Shown in pieces: positions 2,802 to 64,000 of a stretch of DNA of 64,000 nucleotides (the stretch's first letter is position 1; the number at the start of each line of letters is the position of its first letter). The position numbers and the translations under genes are program-made. The stretch comes from Bryobacterales bacterium KBS 96 (GTDB lineage Bacteria; Acidobacteriota; Terriglobia; Bryobacterales; Bryobacteraceae): positions 3,305,304 through 3,369,303 of the forward strand of contig KB906767.1 of assembly GCA_000381625.1 (NCBI GenBank), given 5' to 3'. The notes beneath the pieces were generated by a model. It was not told the DNA's origin. It was given only the letters and a program-made list of their open reading frames with translations, and did not search any database.

Positions 2802-3833
2802 TCAGGATTCGCGCCAATCGAGGATAACTTTGCCGCAGTTACCGGACTGCATTGCCGCAAACCCGTCCTCGTACTCGCGCCACGAATACCGGTGCGTGAT
2901 CACCGGGTGAATGTCCAAGCCCGATTCCAGCATCACGGTCATTTTGTACCAGGTTTCGTACATCTCGCGGCCGTAGATTCCCTTGATGGTCAGCATATTG
3001 AAGATCACCCGGTTCCAGTCGATCGCGATCTCACGATTGGGAATGCCCAGCATGGCGATCTTGGCGCCATGGCTCATATTGGCCAGCATGTCGCGAAAAG
3101 CGACCGGATTTCCGGACATCTCCAGGCCGACATCGAACCCTTCGTGCATTCCGAGTTCTTTCTGCACCTCAGGCAAAGATTTGGTTCCGGGGTCGACGGC
3201 CAGGCTTGCGCCCATTTTCCGCGCGAGTTCGAGCCGATACTTGTTCAAATCCGTGACAACCACGTGCCGGGCGCCGGCATGCCGCGCGACCGCTGCCGCC
3301 ATCAGGCCAATGGGGCCCGCTCCGGTGACGAGCACGTCTTCTCCGAGCACGGGAAACGAAAGCGCAGTATGCACGGCATTGCCGAACGGATCGAAAATCG
3401 CAGCGACGTCCAGCGGCACGCCCGGTCCATGGCGCCAGATATTGGTCATGGGAAGCGCGACGTATTCGGCGAAGGCGCCGGGCCGGTTCACGCCCACGCC
3501 TTTTGTATGAGCGCAGAGATGACGCCGCCCGGCAAGACAATTCCGGCAGCGCCCGCAGACGACATGTCCTTCGCCGCTCACGATTTCGCCGGTATGGAAA
3601 TCGATCACGTTCGAGCCAACTTCGACGATTTCACCGACAAATTCGTGCCCGATCACCAGCGGCACGGGGATAGTGGCGCGAGCCCAATCGTCCCATTCGT
3701 AGATGTGAAGATCGGTTCCGCAGATGCCGGTGAGCAGGACGCGGATCAGGACATCGTTAATTCCAATTTGCGGCTTAGGAACGTTTTCGAGCCAGAGACC
3801 GCGTTCCGCACTGCTTTTAACGAGAGCTTTCAT
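2802..3833 (-). CDS. tdh: L-threonine 3-dehydrogenase
   Basis: A zinc- and NAD-dependent medium-chain dehydrogenase that oxidises L-threonine to 2-amino-3-ketobutyrate, the substrate of the adjacent kbl product. From the ATG at 3833 it has 343 residues, close to the E. coli enzyme; the frame stays open 18 codons further but that extension looks non-native. Catalytic zinc ligands are Cys38 ([13 protein letters not shown]) and the GHE at 62-64. The four structural-zinc cysteines are in [17 protein letters not shown] (93, 96, 99, 107). The Rossmann glycines are in [15 protein letters not shown]. The protein is cytosolic. Related sorbitol or xylitol dehydrogenases are the alternative, but the kbl neighbour argues for Tdh. 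Confidence 0.95.
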
Positions 3834-8585: not shown

Positions 8586-9944
8586 GTGACCGATGTTCTC
8601 ATCCTGGGCGGCGGAATCTCCGGTCTTGCTTCAGCCTATTTCCTTTCGCGGCGCGGCATCGCTTCCACAATTGTCGAAAAGCAGCCTCGCCTGGGCGGCC
8701 TAATCCGAACGGACGCCGTTCAGGGCTGCGCGCTCGAAGCCGGTCCCGACAGCTATATCGCGGCAAAGCCGGCAGTCACCGAACTCGCTGAACAGATACC
8801 GGGCTTAAGCGAAGAAGTTATCGGCGCAAATGAGGACAACCGGAGGATTTTCTTGGTAAAAAACGGCGGCCTTGTCCCTATGCCGAAAGGCATGGCGATG
8901 ATGGTTCCAGCCGACATGCGCGCCGCGTTGGCTTCTCCTCTGTTCGGCGCTTCGACGAAACAGCGCTTTCTCCGCGAACGCCATCAGAAAGCTCGTGAGC
9001 GGACCACGGATGTTTCCATCGCCGAATTTGTCCGAGACCACTTCGACGACGCCGTGTTGGACATGGTAGCCGAGCCACTGCTAACCGGCGTCTACGGCGG
9101 CGATGCCAGAAACTTAAGCGCTGCAAGCGTGCTCCCGCGGTTTCTGGAATATGAGCGCCGCTATGGCAGCCTGATTCGCGCGGTGCGCAGCGAACGTAAG
9201 CAGCAAACGGGCAGCCTCTTTCTCTCGTTCCGCCACGGCATGCAGACGCTGACGGATGCGATTCATCGCGCGACTTCCCCAGCGGCCACAGTAGTTTCCG
9301 GAGAGGCGACCGCCATGGAACACGATTCGCGCGGGTGGCGCGTTCGGGTCAACAACGGCTGGGGAACTTATCGCCGCGTCATTATTGCTTTGCCGGCGCC
9401 CTCCGCCGCGCGCATTTTAGAACGAGCCGATGTGGAACTTACCTCCGAACTGGCGCAGATACCCTACTCTTCGGCTATCACCGTAGTCGTTGTTTACCGC
9501 AAGGCATCGATCGATCACCCTCTCGATGGCTTCGGTTTCCTGGTTCCGCGTCCGGAGCGGCGTCAGCTTGCCGCGTGTACCTGGATCAACACGAAATTCC
9601 CGAACAGAATCGCGGCAGGCTACATAGCGCTAAGAGGATTCATCGTGGGCCAGGATGCCGAGGGCCTGATGCTCGGTGGCGACGAACAGATCCTATCAGT
9701 AGTCAAACGGGAGTTTGCGAGGCTTATGGGAATTGACGCCGAACCGACCTTTCACACTCTTCACCGCTGGCCGGCTTCGATGCCGCAATACGTTGTCGGG
9801 CACAATGCGCGTCGTAATCGAATACAAAAACTCGTTGCCGCGCACCCTGGACTCGCTCTTGTTGGAAATGCGTATGAAGGCGTGGGAATTCCCGATTGCC
9901 TACGTCTCGCCCGGATCGCCGCCGAGAGCATCGTTTTACCGTGA
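8586..9944 (+). CDS. hemG: Protoporphyrinogen / coproporphyrinogen oxidase, HemY type
   Basis: An FAD-dependent oxidase of haem synthesis, 452 residues from the GTG at 8586. The frame is open further upstream inside the previous gene, but that part encodes a basic, non-homologous stretch. The FAD dinucleotide motif is at the very N-terminus (VLILGGGISGLASAYFL), followed by VEKQPRLGGLIRT and GPDSYIA. The C-terminal half has SAITVVVVYRK, HRWPASMPQYVVGH and LVGNAYEGVGIPDC, all typical of the HemG/HemY group. It follows the FAH gene by 8 bp and is probably co-transcribed, although the pathway is unrelated. Whether it acts on proto- or coproporphyrinogen cannot be told from sequence. Confidence 0.9.
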   Translation: MTDVLILGGGISGLASAYFLSRRGIASTIVEKQPRLGGLIRTDAVQGCALEAGPDSYIAAKPAVTELAEQIPGLSEEVIGANEDNRRIFLVKNGGLVPMPKGMAMMVPADMRAALASPLFGASTKQRFLRERHQKARERTTDVSIAEFVRDHFDDAVLDMVAEPLLTGVYGGDARNLSAASVLPRFLEYERRYGSLIRAVRSERKQQTGSLFLSFRHGMQTLTDAIHRATSPAATVVSGEATAMEHDSRGWRVRVNNGWGTYRRVIIALPAPSAARILERADVELTSELAQIPYSSAITVVVVYRKASIDHPLDGFGFLVPRPERRQLAACTWINTKFPNRIAAGYIALRGFIVGQDAEGLMLGGDEQILSVVKREFARLMGIDAEPTFHTLHRWPASMPQYVVGHNARRNRIQKLVAAHPGLALVGNAYEGVGIPDCLRLARIAAESIVLP

Positions 9945-59710: not shown

Positions 59711-61194
59711 AGTCTCAATTGCCGGATTGCCGTTCCTGCGCCCGCGAGATTGGTTAGCTTCATTTCGGAGTATTTTCGTGACAGGATGACGCCATCGGGG
59801 CCTCCATGGAATGCCGCAAGCACCGCATCTTCCGTGCCTTTCGGCGTGGATTTGCTATGGTCCGCTGCTGTCGGAATATCGATATCGATGCCGGGCAACA
59901 GCAATGTCTTGGCGCCGGCCAGGCCCGCACGAGCGCGCTTGGTTTCTCGCAATACATAGTCGCTTGAAAAGCCAGTATGGGGAATCCGATCATAAGTTCC
60001 TTCATCACCATACCCGAGGATGCGGTAGTGGAACTGAAGCAACTCGTTCGGTGGCACGTCTTCGTATTGGGTCTTGCTCACACTATTGATGTAGCTCGCC
60101 ATCCGTTCACCGGCACAATCGTGATACATGACAATTTTCAAGAAATCGGAGTAAGGCGCAATCCGCTGCAGGTCCTGTTCGGCACGATAGACGGGGCTGA
60201 ATGAATTATTGTGCCAAATATGCCACCCAACACCCATGTCCGGCTTAATCGATTTGATCTTCTTATATATCGCCTGATACGTTTCGCGTAAACTGTCGTG
60301 CCACAGGTTCTCCCAGGCCAGTAGTTCCGGGTATGTCAACATCAACCGCCAGAGTTCCACGTAATAGCCATCTACTGGACGCTTTCCTGAGCGCGCCGCG
60401 CGAACGAACTTCTCAAGCTCCAGAAATCCACTCTGGGCGCGCTCGACACGGATACCTTCGCCAGCAGCTTTCTTCTTACAAAAATCGCAGAAGCACGTCA
60501 CGCGGCCGGGATCTCCCGTTCTGCCGCCATGGTGAGAGCCCAGCGCATTAGCAAACGCACCCTGGCGTTCGGATCCCCACATGATGCCGTCGAGATCCCA
60601 CGATCGTGAGTAATCTTCTACTAGAGCAAGCAGAAAATTTCGATAACCTGGGTTATTCAGGCATAGGGTCGACCTGTTGCGGCCGTGGAGATCTCGTTCC
60701 TGTAACTGTTGAATGCCAGGAATATCAGGCCGAAAAACATCTTCAAACCAAGCGATGTTCTTCATCCCGCGCTTTCGCGAAGCGGGAAGTACCTGTTCGA
60801 ACACGTCAAAGGAACCGAGGTCCGGTGCCCGGAGATTCTTCAGCGGGGTGTCAGCGTAGTACTGCGAGTGGAGGGCGGCATAACTGCCACCGTGAAACGT
60901 GCTGGTGTCGTATTCCTGTTTCCCATGATCCGGCAGAGGTTGTCCTGGGACCTGCCGCCCTGCTATGCCACGTCCATAGGTGAACGCAGCGATAAATAAG
61001 GTATTGACGGAGGCTTTACTTTGCAAGTTGTCCAGAACGGGATCGACACCTTCGTCTGCAAAAGATACGGCCCCGATCTGGATGCCGACCGTCTTCTTCG
61101 GATTCGCCGATTGTGTCTGGCCTTGGGTGACCGCGGCAGAGGCCAGCGCTCCAGTCGATTGTAGAAAAAAATCGCGTCGTGTTGTTTCAGACAA
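59704..61194 (-). CDS. Tat-exported glycoside-hydrolase-like protein
   Basis: A 496-residue protein. The start is TTG at 61194: GAGGTGG lies 6 nt upstream and the leader LSETTRRDFFLQSTGALASA is a twin-arginine signal. The body has a TIM-barrel look: VNTLFIAAFTYGRGIAG, RKRGMKNIAWFEDVF, SWDLDGIMWGSERQGAF, CFCDFCKKKAAGEGIRVERA and KPDMGVGWHIWHNNSFSP. The GIMWGSE and GWHIWH segments hold plausible catalytic acids. The C-F-C-D-F-C cluster resembles the FCxxC motif of several acidobacterial and planctomycete hydrolases. It overlaps the upstream hydrolase gene by 8 nt. Substrate unknown; assignment to a CAZy family needs a search. Confidence 0.75.
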   Translation of the reverse strand: MSETTRRDFFLQSTGALASAAVTQGQTQSANPKKTVGIQIGAVSFADEGVDPVLDNLQSKASVNTLFIAAFTYGRGIAGRQVPGQPLPDHGKQEYDTSTFHGGSYAALHSQYYADTPLKNLRAPDLGSFDVFEQVLPASRKRGMKNIAWFEDVFRPDIPGIQQLQERDLHGRNRSTLCLNNPGYRNFLLALVEDYSRSWDLDGIMWGSERQGAFANALGSHHGGRTGDPGRVTCFCDFCKKKAAGEGIRVERAQSGFLELEKFVRAARSGKRPVDGYYVELWRLMLTYPELLAWENLWHDSLRETYQAIYKKIKSIKPDMGVGWHIWHNNSFSPVYRAEQDLQRIAPYSDFLKIVMYHDCAGERMASYINSVSKTQYEDVPPNELLQFHYRILGYGDEGTYDRIPHTGFSSDYVLRETKRARAGLAGAKTLLLPGIDIDIPTAADHSKSTPKGTEDAVLAAFHGGPDGVILSRKYSEMKLTNLAGAGTAIRQLRLS

Positions 61195-63316
61195 GCGCAG
61201 CCACCTCGTAATCCGCCACTGCCGGAATGGTAAACTCCACCGTCCGTCCATTTTTGACAAAGGGAACGTCTCTTCCGGCGCGCAACAATTTCACTCGCGA
61301 AATATCGGCGCCAGACGGCAATGTCATGCGGATCTTCTGGGCGCCCAGCGGGTAGGGATGAGTAAACCAGCCTCGCATCATCTCAGGATTGTTATAGTTC
61401 AGAACGTGAACGGCAAAGCCCGGCTGGGTTCTCCACGCGAATAGCTCGACCATGCCCTCACCGGCCACTACAACTGGCGCTGCTTCTTGTATCATCCAGC
61501 GGATTGAATTCACAAGCAAACGACTGAGGTCTGGATTCTGCGATCTCCAGTAAGCCCGGTCAATATCGCCAGGAAAATAAACCGTGCGGCTTGAGCCTTG
61601 TTGGCGCAGAACAATGGCCGGCTGATCCGTGTGCTCCACACGAGGATAGACCATCTCGGGCGGAAACGCAGGAAATGGCGGGATGACTGTCAGAACCGCG
61701 TCCTGCACCGGCGCTAGAGGTACGTAATATTCGGCAAATGGCAGTAACTTCGTATTCTCAAACCCGCTAAGAATCGGATGGGGACGCTCGATACGGGCAT
61801 AGGCAGCGTTTCCATTGGGGCCAACGCGCTTTGCTGCGACCTTGGCGCCAAACAAATCGGAGAGAGCCCAGTCAGACCGGGGGTTCGAGCTTTCGTCGTA
61901 AAAACCGGTCTCAAACGTGGCAAGCAGAGATCCACCGCGGCTAGCATAATCGCGCAGTTGAGCACATTGCGTGGAGCTCAACAGCGCGGCGTTGGGCAGG
62001 ATGAGAGCTTTATACTTAGCGAGCGTCTCGGGCCCGAGGTCATCTTCATGAACAAAGTCAAACAGGAAGCGTCCGTCCAGAAGAGCTTTGTACATTCCCT
62101 GTAAGAACTCGGTAGCATCCCGGCCGCCGGGCGGTTGATAAAACGCGTTCGTGCGCTGAGAAAACACAACGCCTAAGGTGGCGATTGAATGGCGATTAGT
62201 GAAGTGCGCCTCATTTGCGGCGATCCATTGGAAAAAATCCCGGCCCGTTTTCTCCCATCGGTGATCCTCGGGCTTGCCGCCCAACCAGTGATACCAAGGC
62301 GTCATACCGCTGGCCGTGGTCTGCGCCATCCACATGGTCGCCTCCAGCGGAGCTTTTGACGTGTGGCGCCAGAGCGGAGAGGTATTGGCATAAGAGCCTG
62401 TCACGTTAGTAATCGTACGGCCCTTCATAACCGCCTGCGCGACGCGGCCCTGCTGCGCGCAATCCCAAATAGGAGTTTCGCGGGACCGGCCCTGATGATC
62501 GGCATTAAACCAGCCGGCCACGCCCGCAATCCGGCTCAGATTCGTGACCGCGCGAATGCCGCCGCCCAGATTGCCGACATAGACGCTGTCCCACTTCTTC
62601 TGTTTCGCCGTGCTGTCCCATAGCTTCCAGACATCGAGGACTCTGGCCAGGTGCTGCTCATAGCCTTCCGGAGTCGATGGATCCGCAAGTTTCCGGCACG
62701 CTTCGCAATAGCATTTCGGCGGTCTGCCGGTGCTTGGCCATCCATTCGTAAAGAACCCATCCACATCATAAAGCGAATTCACTTCGCGAATAATTGCCGG
62801 CATCTGCTCCGTGAAATAGGCGGAGTACATGCAGGTTTTATAAAGCCATGGGGATTCCGGGCTCGTGACCGGGTTCCCATCGCTGGTCCGTTCAACCCAT
62901 TCCGGATGCGCCTTGTAGGCTTCTTCGTATACGTAATTGCAATCGAGCCGGGCAACTACCCGGATCTTTGCTGCCTTGGCGGCCTTGGTGAAATCGCCGA
63001 AGAGATCGTGCCCGTCTAAGAACTGGCTGCGATGGTGATACGGGATTTTAGTCGGATAGAACGCCATGATGCCGCCGGCGTTCAGCAGGAGCGCGTCCAG
63101 CTTGAGACTTGACCAGTAGTCGACCCACCAACCAATGTCCAATTCGATGGGGTCGCGCTCGTTGAAGTTTGTCTGGCCGCAGCGCCGCATCGTTGCGTAC
63201 CAAGGTGTGCGTTCCGCATTTTGCCGATCTGCTCCAAACAGATGCGGCGTGAGCGCCGTTGCTGACACGATGCTAACGGCTTCGCGCCGCGTCATTTTAT
63301 TTGTCGATTCGTTCAT
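61187..63316 (-). CDS. Tat-exported glycoside-hydrolase-like protein (GHL6 / GH42-like)
   Basis: A 709-residue protein from the ATG at 63316 with a twin-arginine leader (MTRREAVSIVSATALTPHLF). The N-terminal barrel has DALLLNAGGIMAFYPTKIPY, VARLDCNYVYEEAYKAHPEW and DVDGFFTNGWPSTGRPPKCY with CEACRKLADP, as in the hypothetical glycosyl hydrolase 6 group. A middle domain (about 410-600; LILPNAALLSSTQCAQLRDY and ASRGGSLLATFETG) resembles the GH42 trimerisation fold. A C-terminal beta-sandwich carries FAVHVLNYNNPEMM. It precedes the second hydrolase, whose start overlaps its stop, so both products are made together and probably act on the same polymer. The substrate is unknown; the family is by resemblance. 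Confidence 0.82.
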   Translation of the reverse strand: MNESTNKMTRREAVSIVSATALTPHLFGADRQNAERTPWYATMRRCGQTNFNERDPIELDIGWWVDYWSSLKLDALLLNAGGIMAFYPTKIPYHHRSQFLDGHDLFGDFTKAAKAAKIRVVARLDCNYVYEEAYKAHPEWVERTSDGNPVTSPESPWLYKTCMYSAYFTEQMPAIIREVNSLYDVDGFFTNGWPSTGRPPKCYCEACRKLADPSTPEGYEQHLARVLDVWKLWDSTAKQKKWDSVYVGNLGGGIRAVTNLSRIAGVAGWFNADHQGRSRETPIWDCAQQGRVAQAVMKGRTITNVTGSYANTSPLWRHTSKAPLEATMWMAQTTASGMTPWYHWLGGKPEDHRWEKTGRDFFQWIAANEAHFTNRHSIATLGVVFSQRTNAFYQPPGGRDATEFLQGMYKALLDGRFLFDFVHEDDLGPETLAKYKALILPNAALLSSTQCAQLRDYASRGGSLLATFETGFYDESSNPRSDWALSDLFGAKVAAKRVGPNGNAAYARIERPHPILSGFENTKLLPFAEYYVPLAPVQDAVLTVIPPFPAFPPEMVYPRVEHTDQPAIVLRQQGSSRTVYFPGDIDRAYWRSQNPDLSRLLVNSIRWMIQEAAPVVVAGEGMVELFAWRTQPGFAVHVLNYNNPEMMRGWFTHPYPLGAQKIRMTLPSGADISRVKLLRAGRDVPFVKNGRTVEFTIPAVADYEVAALV

Positions 63317-63422
63317 GAGATTTCCGGTCACCAGGATATCCGGGCCACGGATCAAAATGAACGCAGATGTCGTCAGGTGGCCCGGTTCAGAAATCCAATA
63401 GCGATTGTAGACTGACTCTTCG

Positions 63423-64000
63423 TTAGGTCAACCTTGTTTTGGGACACAATTTTTGTAACCGGTGCTGGAGCCGTTCGACCCTGCTTTGCCAATGACGGCT
63501 CGTATTATCGATGTTCTCTCGCAACCTGGAGAGCTCCTCTTTCAACTCCGAGATTCTTTCATCTCGCGCCACCGACAGGGCAATTGGCGCCCCAAATCCA
63601 TGCTCAACCAACGACAAGGCGATTTCTTTCCTCGCGACCGGACCGAGCCGCCGGGTTGCCTTGGAAAAATCGTGCTCAAGCAAGCCACGGACGGTGTTGC
63701 AGGCCGCTTCCCGTAGCGCGTTTCGCACACGTACGGACAGCGCGCTAAGTGTTCGATCGGAGAATCGAGTGTGAGTTGCCCGTGCATTCGCTCGCCAGCC
63801 GTCGCGAGTTCTAGATCCCGATCCACACGCGATAAGAGAGCTCCCACTTTAAACCGTGATAAACCCGTATCGCGGCTAATTTTCCGAATCGTCCGGCCAT
63901 CCCGTACATGCGCCACAAAAAGCCGCCACGAATCTTCTTGAATGAAACAGGGCGGCTTATCTTCGAGCGTGCGGAGATGCCTTTCCCGGAGTACGGTAAT
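63423..64000 (-). pseudogene. Frameshifted HTH plus RNA polymerase alpha-CTD-like protein (N-terminus outside window)
   Basis: One protein is spread over two frames. The upstream part, open to the window edge, has EDSWRLFVAHVRDGRTIRKI and SRDTGLSRFKVGALLSRVDR, a helix-turn-helix. It continues with LTLDSPIEHLA. The rest is in another frame: LSVRVRNALREAACNTVRGL, then ATRRLGPVARKEIALSLVEH, then a coiled-coil tail (ISELKEELSRLRENIDNTSR). Joined, PIEHLA-LSVRVRNAL...RRLGPVARKEI reads like the helix-hairpin-helix of the RNA polymerase alpha C-terminal domain, keeping the Arg and Asn that contact UP-element DNA. Two extra bases in the GCGCGC run near 63740-63745 would explain the break. It is either a pseudogene or a sequence error. 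Confidence 0.65.

Follow-up and report, generated by a model that had tools for sequence, protein, structure and literature searches.

In the RNA polymerase holoenzyme the C-terminal domain of the alpha subunit (alphaCTD) and region 4 of sigma contact one another at upstream promoter DNA (excerpt of PMC4496709). R265 and N268 bind DNA in the E. coli alphaCTD (excerpt of PMC11434276), and roles in UP-element DNA contact by alphaCTD are ascribed to N294 and K298 (excerpt of PMC7822876); a second alpha subunit has been described in Francisella (excerpt of PMC3294249). Among the matches listed in a search of the openly licensed PMC literature, none described a stand-alone HTH-alphaCTD protein, and a description may exist elsewhere. 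The second alpha subunit of Francisella bears a CTD; the locus reported here likewise gives its genome a second gene with an alphaCTD, and differs in that the Francisella protein assembles into the polymerase as an alpha subunit. The plasmid repressors KorA and ArdK, which to our knowledge carry no alphaCTD, were a further point of comparison for the HTH.

The window (the whole stretch of DNA that was analysed, 64,000 nucleotides of the soil acidobacterium Bryobacterales bacterium KBS 96) ends on the right within a frame-shifted gene for a sigma4-like HTH, an alphaCTD and a coiled coil (63423..64000, minus strand; assigned by Pfam and relatives), the ATG of which lies beyond the window. Frame A runs from this ATG, 15 bases past the window end (position 3319 of the own locus, L003), to a stop at window 63542, and the stop codon of frame B is at 63423-63425, both frames being on the minus strand. 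Frame A holds, on the same strand, an HTH resembling sigma-70 region 4 (63806..63943, residues 25-70 of the frame; alignment with relatives) and the first part of the alphaCTD (LDSPIEHLA, 63743..63769; Pfam and alignment); the reading frame changes at a GCGCGC run (63740..63745, minus strand); frame B, minus strand as well, holds the remainder of the alphaCTD (LSVRVRNAL...LVEHGF, 63594..63740; Pfam and alignment, with the fold taken from the model of the relative L011) and a predicted C-terminal coiled-coil helix (63447..63563, minus strand; aligned to L011 residues 148-191). Joined, frames A and B give a protein of 196 aa. The gene is read here, at a probability of about 0.55, as a frame-shifted member of a family whose intact members are dimeric DNA-binding regulators that adjust the adjacent ammonium-uptake genes.

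The original prediction had taken the two overlapping frames for one gene split at the GCGCGC run. Both frames are present as it described, extension to the right of the window supplied the start codon of frame A, and a search for intact orthologues returned relatives that do not hold two separate frames: in the alignment the junction is continuous and in a single frame in all nine other family loci. Because these nine loci are unbroken at the junction, the window sequence is taken as one gene, shifted by mutation or by assembly error; the window copy represents a single ancestral reading frame and, as assembled, cannot yield the whole protein, be it by real loss or by an error of assembly. 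In codon-usage scoring (training set, 400 kb of the own genome; independent of homology) frame A was preferred before the junction (2.1 vs −15.4 and −30.6) and frame B downstream of it (−2.9 vs −30.2 and −26.5), both preferred scores being near zero in absolute terms; a Viterbi run over the 400 kb of the own genome did not call the gene. Compared with L011, both window halves differ chiefly at third codon positions (30/23/64 and 48/22/67), and a weaker third-position lean was seen with L012 (39/36/68 and 53/35/66); a third-position excess in both halves would be expected had each been coding through most of its past. The Viterbi scan gave 18 frame changes in the 400 kb around the gene, several of them plain gene overlaps. 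One of the 18, outside the window, splits a conserved carbohydrate phosphorylase gene across two frames at a GCCGCC repeat (G000:C1, ~3423410), and this split may reflect residual indel errors in the own assembly.

The presence of an alphaCTD in the joined sequence was borne out by the Pfam search: the joined protein scored 27.2 bits (E 3.3e-6) with RNA_pol_A_CTD (PF03118; curated cut-off 23.8), and neither half passed alone (frame A, no Pfam family up to E 10; frame B, 16.9 bits with RNA_pol_A_CTD). The same family was matched at E up to 1 by 10/10 members (best 2.7e-8), with L011 at 31.2 bits, above the cut-off. The top PDB profile matches were RpoA (best E 3.2e-12); the match to PDB 8vd6 had an E value of 5.7e-9, yet no single stretch passing. 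Residues 80-145 of the L011 model superimposed on solved alphaCTDs with Z up to 9.6 (rmsd 2.1 over 65 residues). In the alignment the equivalents of R265, N268, G296 and E302 are invariant in 10/10 members, G296 and E302 likewise having roles in the E. coli alphaCTD; at the N294 position all ten carry another residue (R, G or Q), and the K298 equivalent is present in six of the ten. The likeness to the RpoA CTD thus comprises the fold of L011, a Pfam score above the cut-off and the four invariant equivalents. The differences are that the five members compared share 24-29% identity with the CTDs of RpoA from related bacteria, that the family is 2-3 residues shorter before G296, that it is without alphaNTD, and that the domain sits on a different protein.

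The alphaNTD was not among the Pfam matches of the joined protein, nor among the best 25 of the 41 families matched by the members. The NCBIfam RpoA models gave the joined protein and the members 11-28 bits vs cut-offs of at least 227.8, and the own genome has a separate rpoA (363-codon open frame, CTD 101 bits). The window protein is not an RNA polymerase alpha subunit: no assembly domain is among these matches and a separate rpoA is present. For all ten members there was also a partial match to the NCBIfam model for PglW, the BREX kinase (best 1.5e-7, well short of the cut-off); these partial matches suggest an alphaCTD-like stretch in PglW.

For the HTH, Sigma70_r4 (PF04545) was matched at E up to 1 by 5/10 members (best 1.5e-4), PF08281 by 2/10 and the NCBIfam sigma70-ECF model TIGR02937 by 6/10 (best 3.4e-5). 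L011 scored 19.6 bits with Sigma70_r4 (cut-off 24.1), and its TIGR02937 match was also under the cut-off. The joined protein of the window had no Pfam HTH match up to E 10, and the HTH is called for this copy because of the HTH of its relatives. The likeness to sigma-70 is confined to region 4 (PF04545, PF08281 and TIGR02937): region 2 was not among the best 25 of the 41 Pfam families matched by the members, and KorA and ArdK fit the HTH structure equally well. Judged by their sigma matches among these 25 families, which are region-4-like only, the family members are not sigma-70 factors.

L011 was modelled with AlphaFold (6 sequences, mean pLDDT 77.3, pTM 0.39); the model placed an HTH at residues 27-69 (block pLDDT 84-92), the alphaCTD helices at 87-137 (block pLDDT 63-81) and a single long helix at 148-191 (block pLDDT 74-93 over 151-190). 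Sigma region 4 (Z 7-8) fitted the modelled HTH about as well as did KorA/ArdK, the plasmid repressors with a similar HTH fold (Z ~8); HTH Z values of 7-8 lie in the range where chance similarity is frequent. Foldseek, queried with the whole L011 model, found no match at E 0.001. An intact member consists of an HTH like sigma-70 region 4, an alphaCTD paralogue and a coiled coil, and lacks a polymerase-assembly domain; the predicted combination of HTH and alphaCTD without alphaNTD is in this way backed by Pfam, by the intact relatives and by the structure model.

With the joined protein as query a match was obtained in 5/101 genomes, the own genome included. A profile search of the order gave strong matches in 9/257 genomes (10 loci), and any match in 223 of the 257; the weak ones (E 1.2e-8 or worse) were assigned to RpoA CTDs from the length of the ORF, some of them lying in frames of other lengths, and from four of six such other-length loci inspected an RpoA CTD was recovered. 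At E 1e-10, 4/399 genomes of the class sample matched (own included, all of one bacterial family) and 2/396 of the phylum sample (own genome and the RpoA of G877); outside the bacterial family of Candidatus Solibacter no family member was found at this threshold in the 399 + 396 sampled genomes. The searches scored the best 8 (class and phylum samples) or 12 (order) first-look candidates per genome, so that misses are possible. In the genomes searched, the protein family is small and rare and is found only in the family of Candidatus Solibacter within Acidobacteriota. Seven of the ten loci come from metagenome bins labelled Acidobacteria, Acidobacteriia, Bryobacterales, Terriglobia or Candidatus Solibacter. 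A phage or plasmid origin was considered and rejected: there was no phage match, the plasmid match was one RpoA, 0/43 viral-contig candidates were confirmed, and PHROG matches reached E 0.014 at best.

HTH, alphaCTD and coiled coil are open in six copies (L011, L012, L014, L015, L016 and L070). L013 has a TAA just ahead of the HTH, L017 has no HTH, and L071 is a 156-codon open frame without recognisable HTH, its TAG being the C-terminal stop; in all three the frame for alphaCTD and coiled coil is still open and has an ATG ahead of the alphaCTD. The ratio dN/dS (Nei-Gojobori) was ~0.26 for L011/L012 (dS 1.5) and ~0.23 for L014/L015 (dS 1.1), and by this measure both intact pairs are under purifying selection.

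In the own genome a PII gene precedes the family gene on its strand, separated from it by a 77-codon ORF; genes for a BBP2 porin and for an ammonium transporter follow on the opposite strand, and this nitrogen-gene context lies mostly right of the window end. The 77-codon ORF (L003 3353-3583, minus strand, also right of the window) had no Pfam match. At least one of Amt, BBP2 porin and PII occurs at 10/10 loci (Amt 7, BBP2 porin 7, PII 4, with the PII gene of L012 at 8897-9232); an amino-acid permease, a PP2C phosphatase and a Ser/Thr kinase occur together at four loci and a glutamine synthetase at one. Neighbours were assigned by Pfam for the own genome, L014 and L016, and by BLAST clustering or by eye for the others. 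The nearest nitrogen gene is divergent from the family gene at six loci and on the same strand at four. With 2 Amt matches (E up to 1e-40) in the 6.69 Mb of the own genome, the nearness of Amt at 7/10 loci is far above chance, with the reservation that the loci are not independent. On the other side of the gene, within the window, a GHL6-type glycosidase gene (61187-63355) is in its first part 99% identical to a copy at G000:C1:2158695-2159025 and beyond; the similarity ends near window 63331, so that a recent duplication has one of its edges ~90 bases away from the alphaCTD gene.

An imperfect palindrome of the AATAGAWAWTWTCTATT type (17-19 bases) was found upstream of the family gene at 5/10 loci, and copies also stand upstream of amt/porin at L013, L014, L015, L017 and L070 (five loci used as seeds). 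The exact pattern gave 21 sites in 12 of 25 chosen genomes, 1-3 per genome, versus one for the pattern reversed as a control; a single exact site lies in the own genome, in the PII-porin gap (L003 4206, ~900 bases past the right end of the window). Most palindrome sites are at amt, PII, porin or family genes, and three sites without such genes within 1.5 kb were seen (G014, G059 and G230 C70). At 7/30 Amt loci the palindrome score was 21.8 or more, all seven in genomes without a strong family match, and the exact pattern occurs in five genomes without one (G222, G257, G230, G269 and G044); G028 and G275 have the protein and are without the exact pattern. The palindrome was consequently rejected as proof of an operator of the family protein, there being sites near nitrogen genes without the protein and, in G028 and G275, the protein without the exact pattern. 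It is probably bound by a nitrogen regulator of wider reach, and the family gene itself may be part of the regulon of that regulator.

From domain content and neighbourhood, the family is probably a local regulator of nitrogen uptake. An intact member would dimerise through the coiled coil, its HTH would bind the major groove of promoter DNA and its alphaCTD the minor groove, and the bound dimer would adjust transcription of the neighbouring amt, PII and BBP2 porin genes, the targets and the direction of the effect both being presumed. In a more specific and rather doubtful version, the dimer would act as a promoter module free of polymerase, reading the UP element and the −35 region of nitrogen-uptake promoters and either competing with RNA polymerase or preparing the site for it. 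The original prediction further proposed that such a protein could recruit or imitate RNA polymerase at UP elements; of the DNA-contact residues that bear on this proposal, the R265 and N268 equivalents are present throughout, N294 is replaced and K298 is present in six of the ten. A small protein with both domains and no polymerase would be a natural test of regulation by free modules, and the family would be a handle on nitrogen control in Acidobacteriota.

Other roles for the intact protein were weighed against this regulator. It could be an anti-polymerase decoy, a candidate occupant of UP elements and −35 sites, or of the alphaCTD-binding face of activators, which without polymerase would cause local repression. 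The protein does hold both modules that touch upstream promoter DNA in the holoenzyme, with no alphaNTD among the matches listed, and by eye an AT-rich stretch beside a possible −35 precedes the gene at five loci; this stretch, however, is part of the palindrome that is present in genomes without the protein, and a decoy function is considered unlikely. It is similarly improbable that alphaCTD and coiled coil are the working core, serving as adaptor or co-regulator for another nitrogen regulator, with the HTH dispensable. The open alphaCTD-coiled-coil frames kept by L017, L071 and L013, in which the HTH is missing, unrecognisable or separated by a stop, speak for such a core; against it, the HTH is in open frame in 6/10 copies, whole-protein dN/dS is well below 1 in the two pairs tested, and the HTH-less changes sit in metagenome bins and may be errors.

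The state of the window copy admits further explanations besides that of a frame-shifted member of a working family. Programmed frameshifting could make the joined protein from frames A and B, both of which are open around the GCGCGC run; the nine other loci, in which the junction lies in one frame, led to rejection of this mechanism, no slippery heptamer was seen at the site by eye, and it is regarded as most improbable. The window copy could also be a pseudogene of a family decaying in the lineage. A clear lesion in 2/10 copies (the window frameshift and the TAA of L013), loss of the HTH in two more (L017 and L071) and the limitation of strong matches to 9/257 genomes speak for decay; dN/dS values of ~0.23-0.26 in two pairs of intact copies and a nitrogen-locus neighbourhood constant at 10/10 loci speak against it, and general decay appears unlikely.

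An alphaCTD outside RpoA was also met in a Planctomycetes protein (L026 9554-10498), which shares the LSVRARNAL motif with the family; it differs in that TPR replaces the HTH and in having two alphaCTD copies. The first of these copies is 42% identical to the RpoA of the own genome vs 28-32% to the family, and the Pfam search gave 138 bits for the alphaCTD plus TPR repeats. Similar two-alphaCTD Planctomycetes proteins were seen by eye at L024 and L027 (3/19 Planctomycetes loci inspected).
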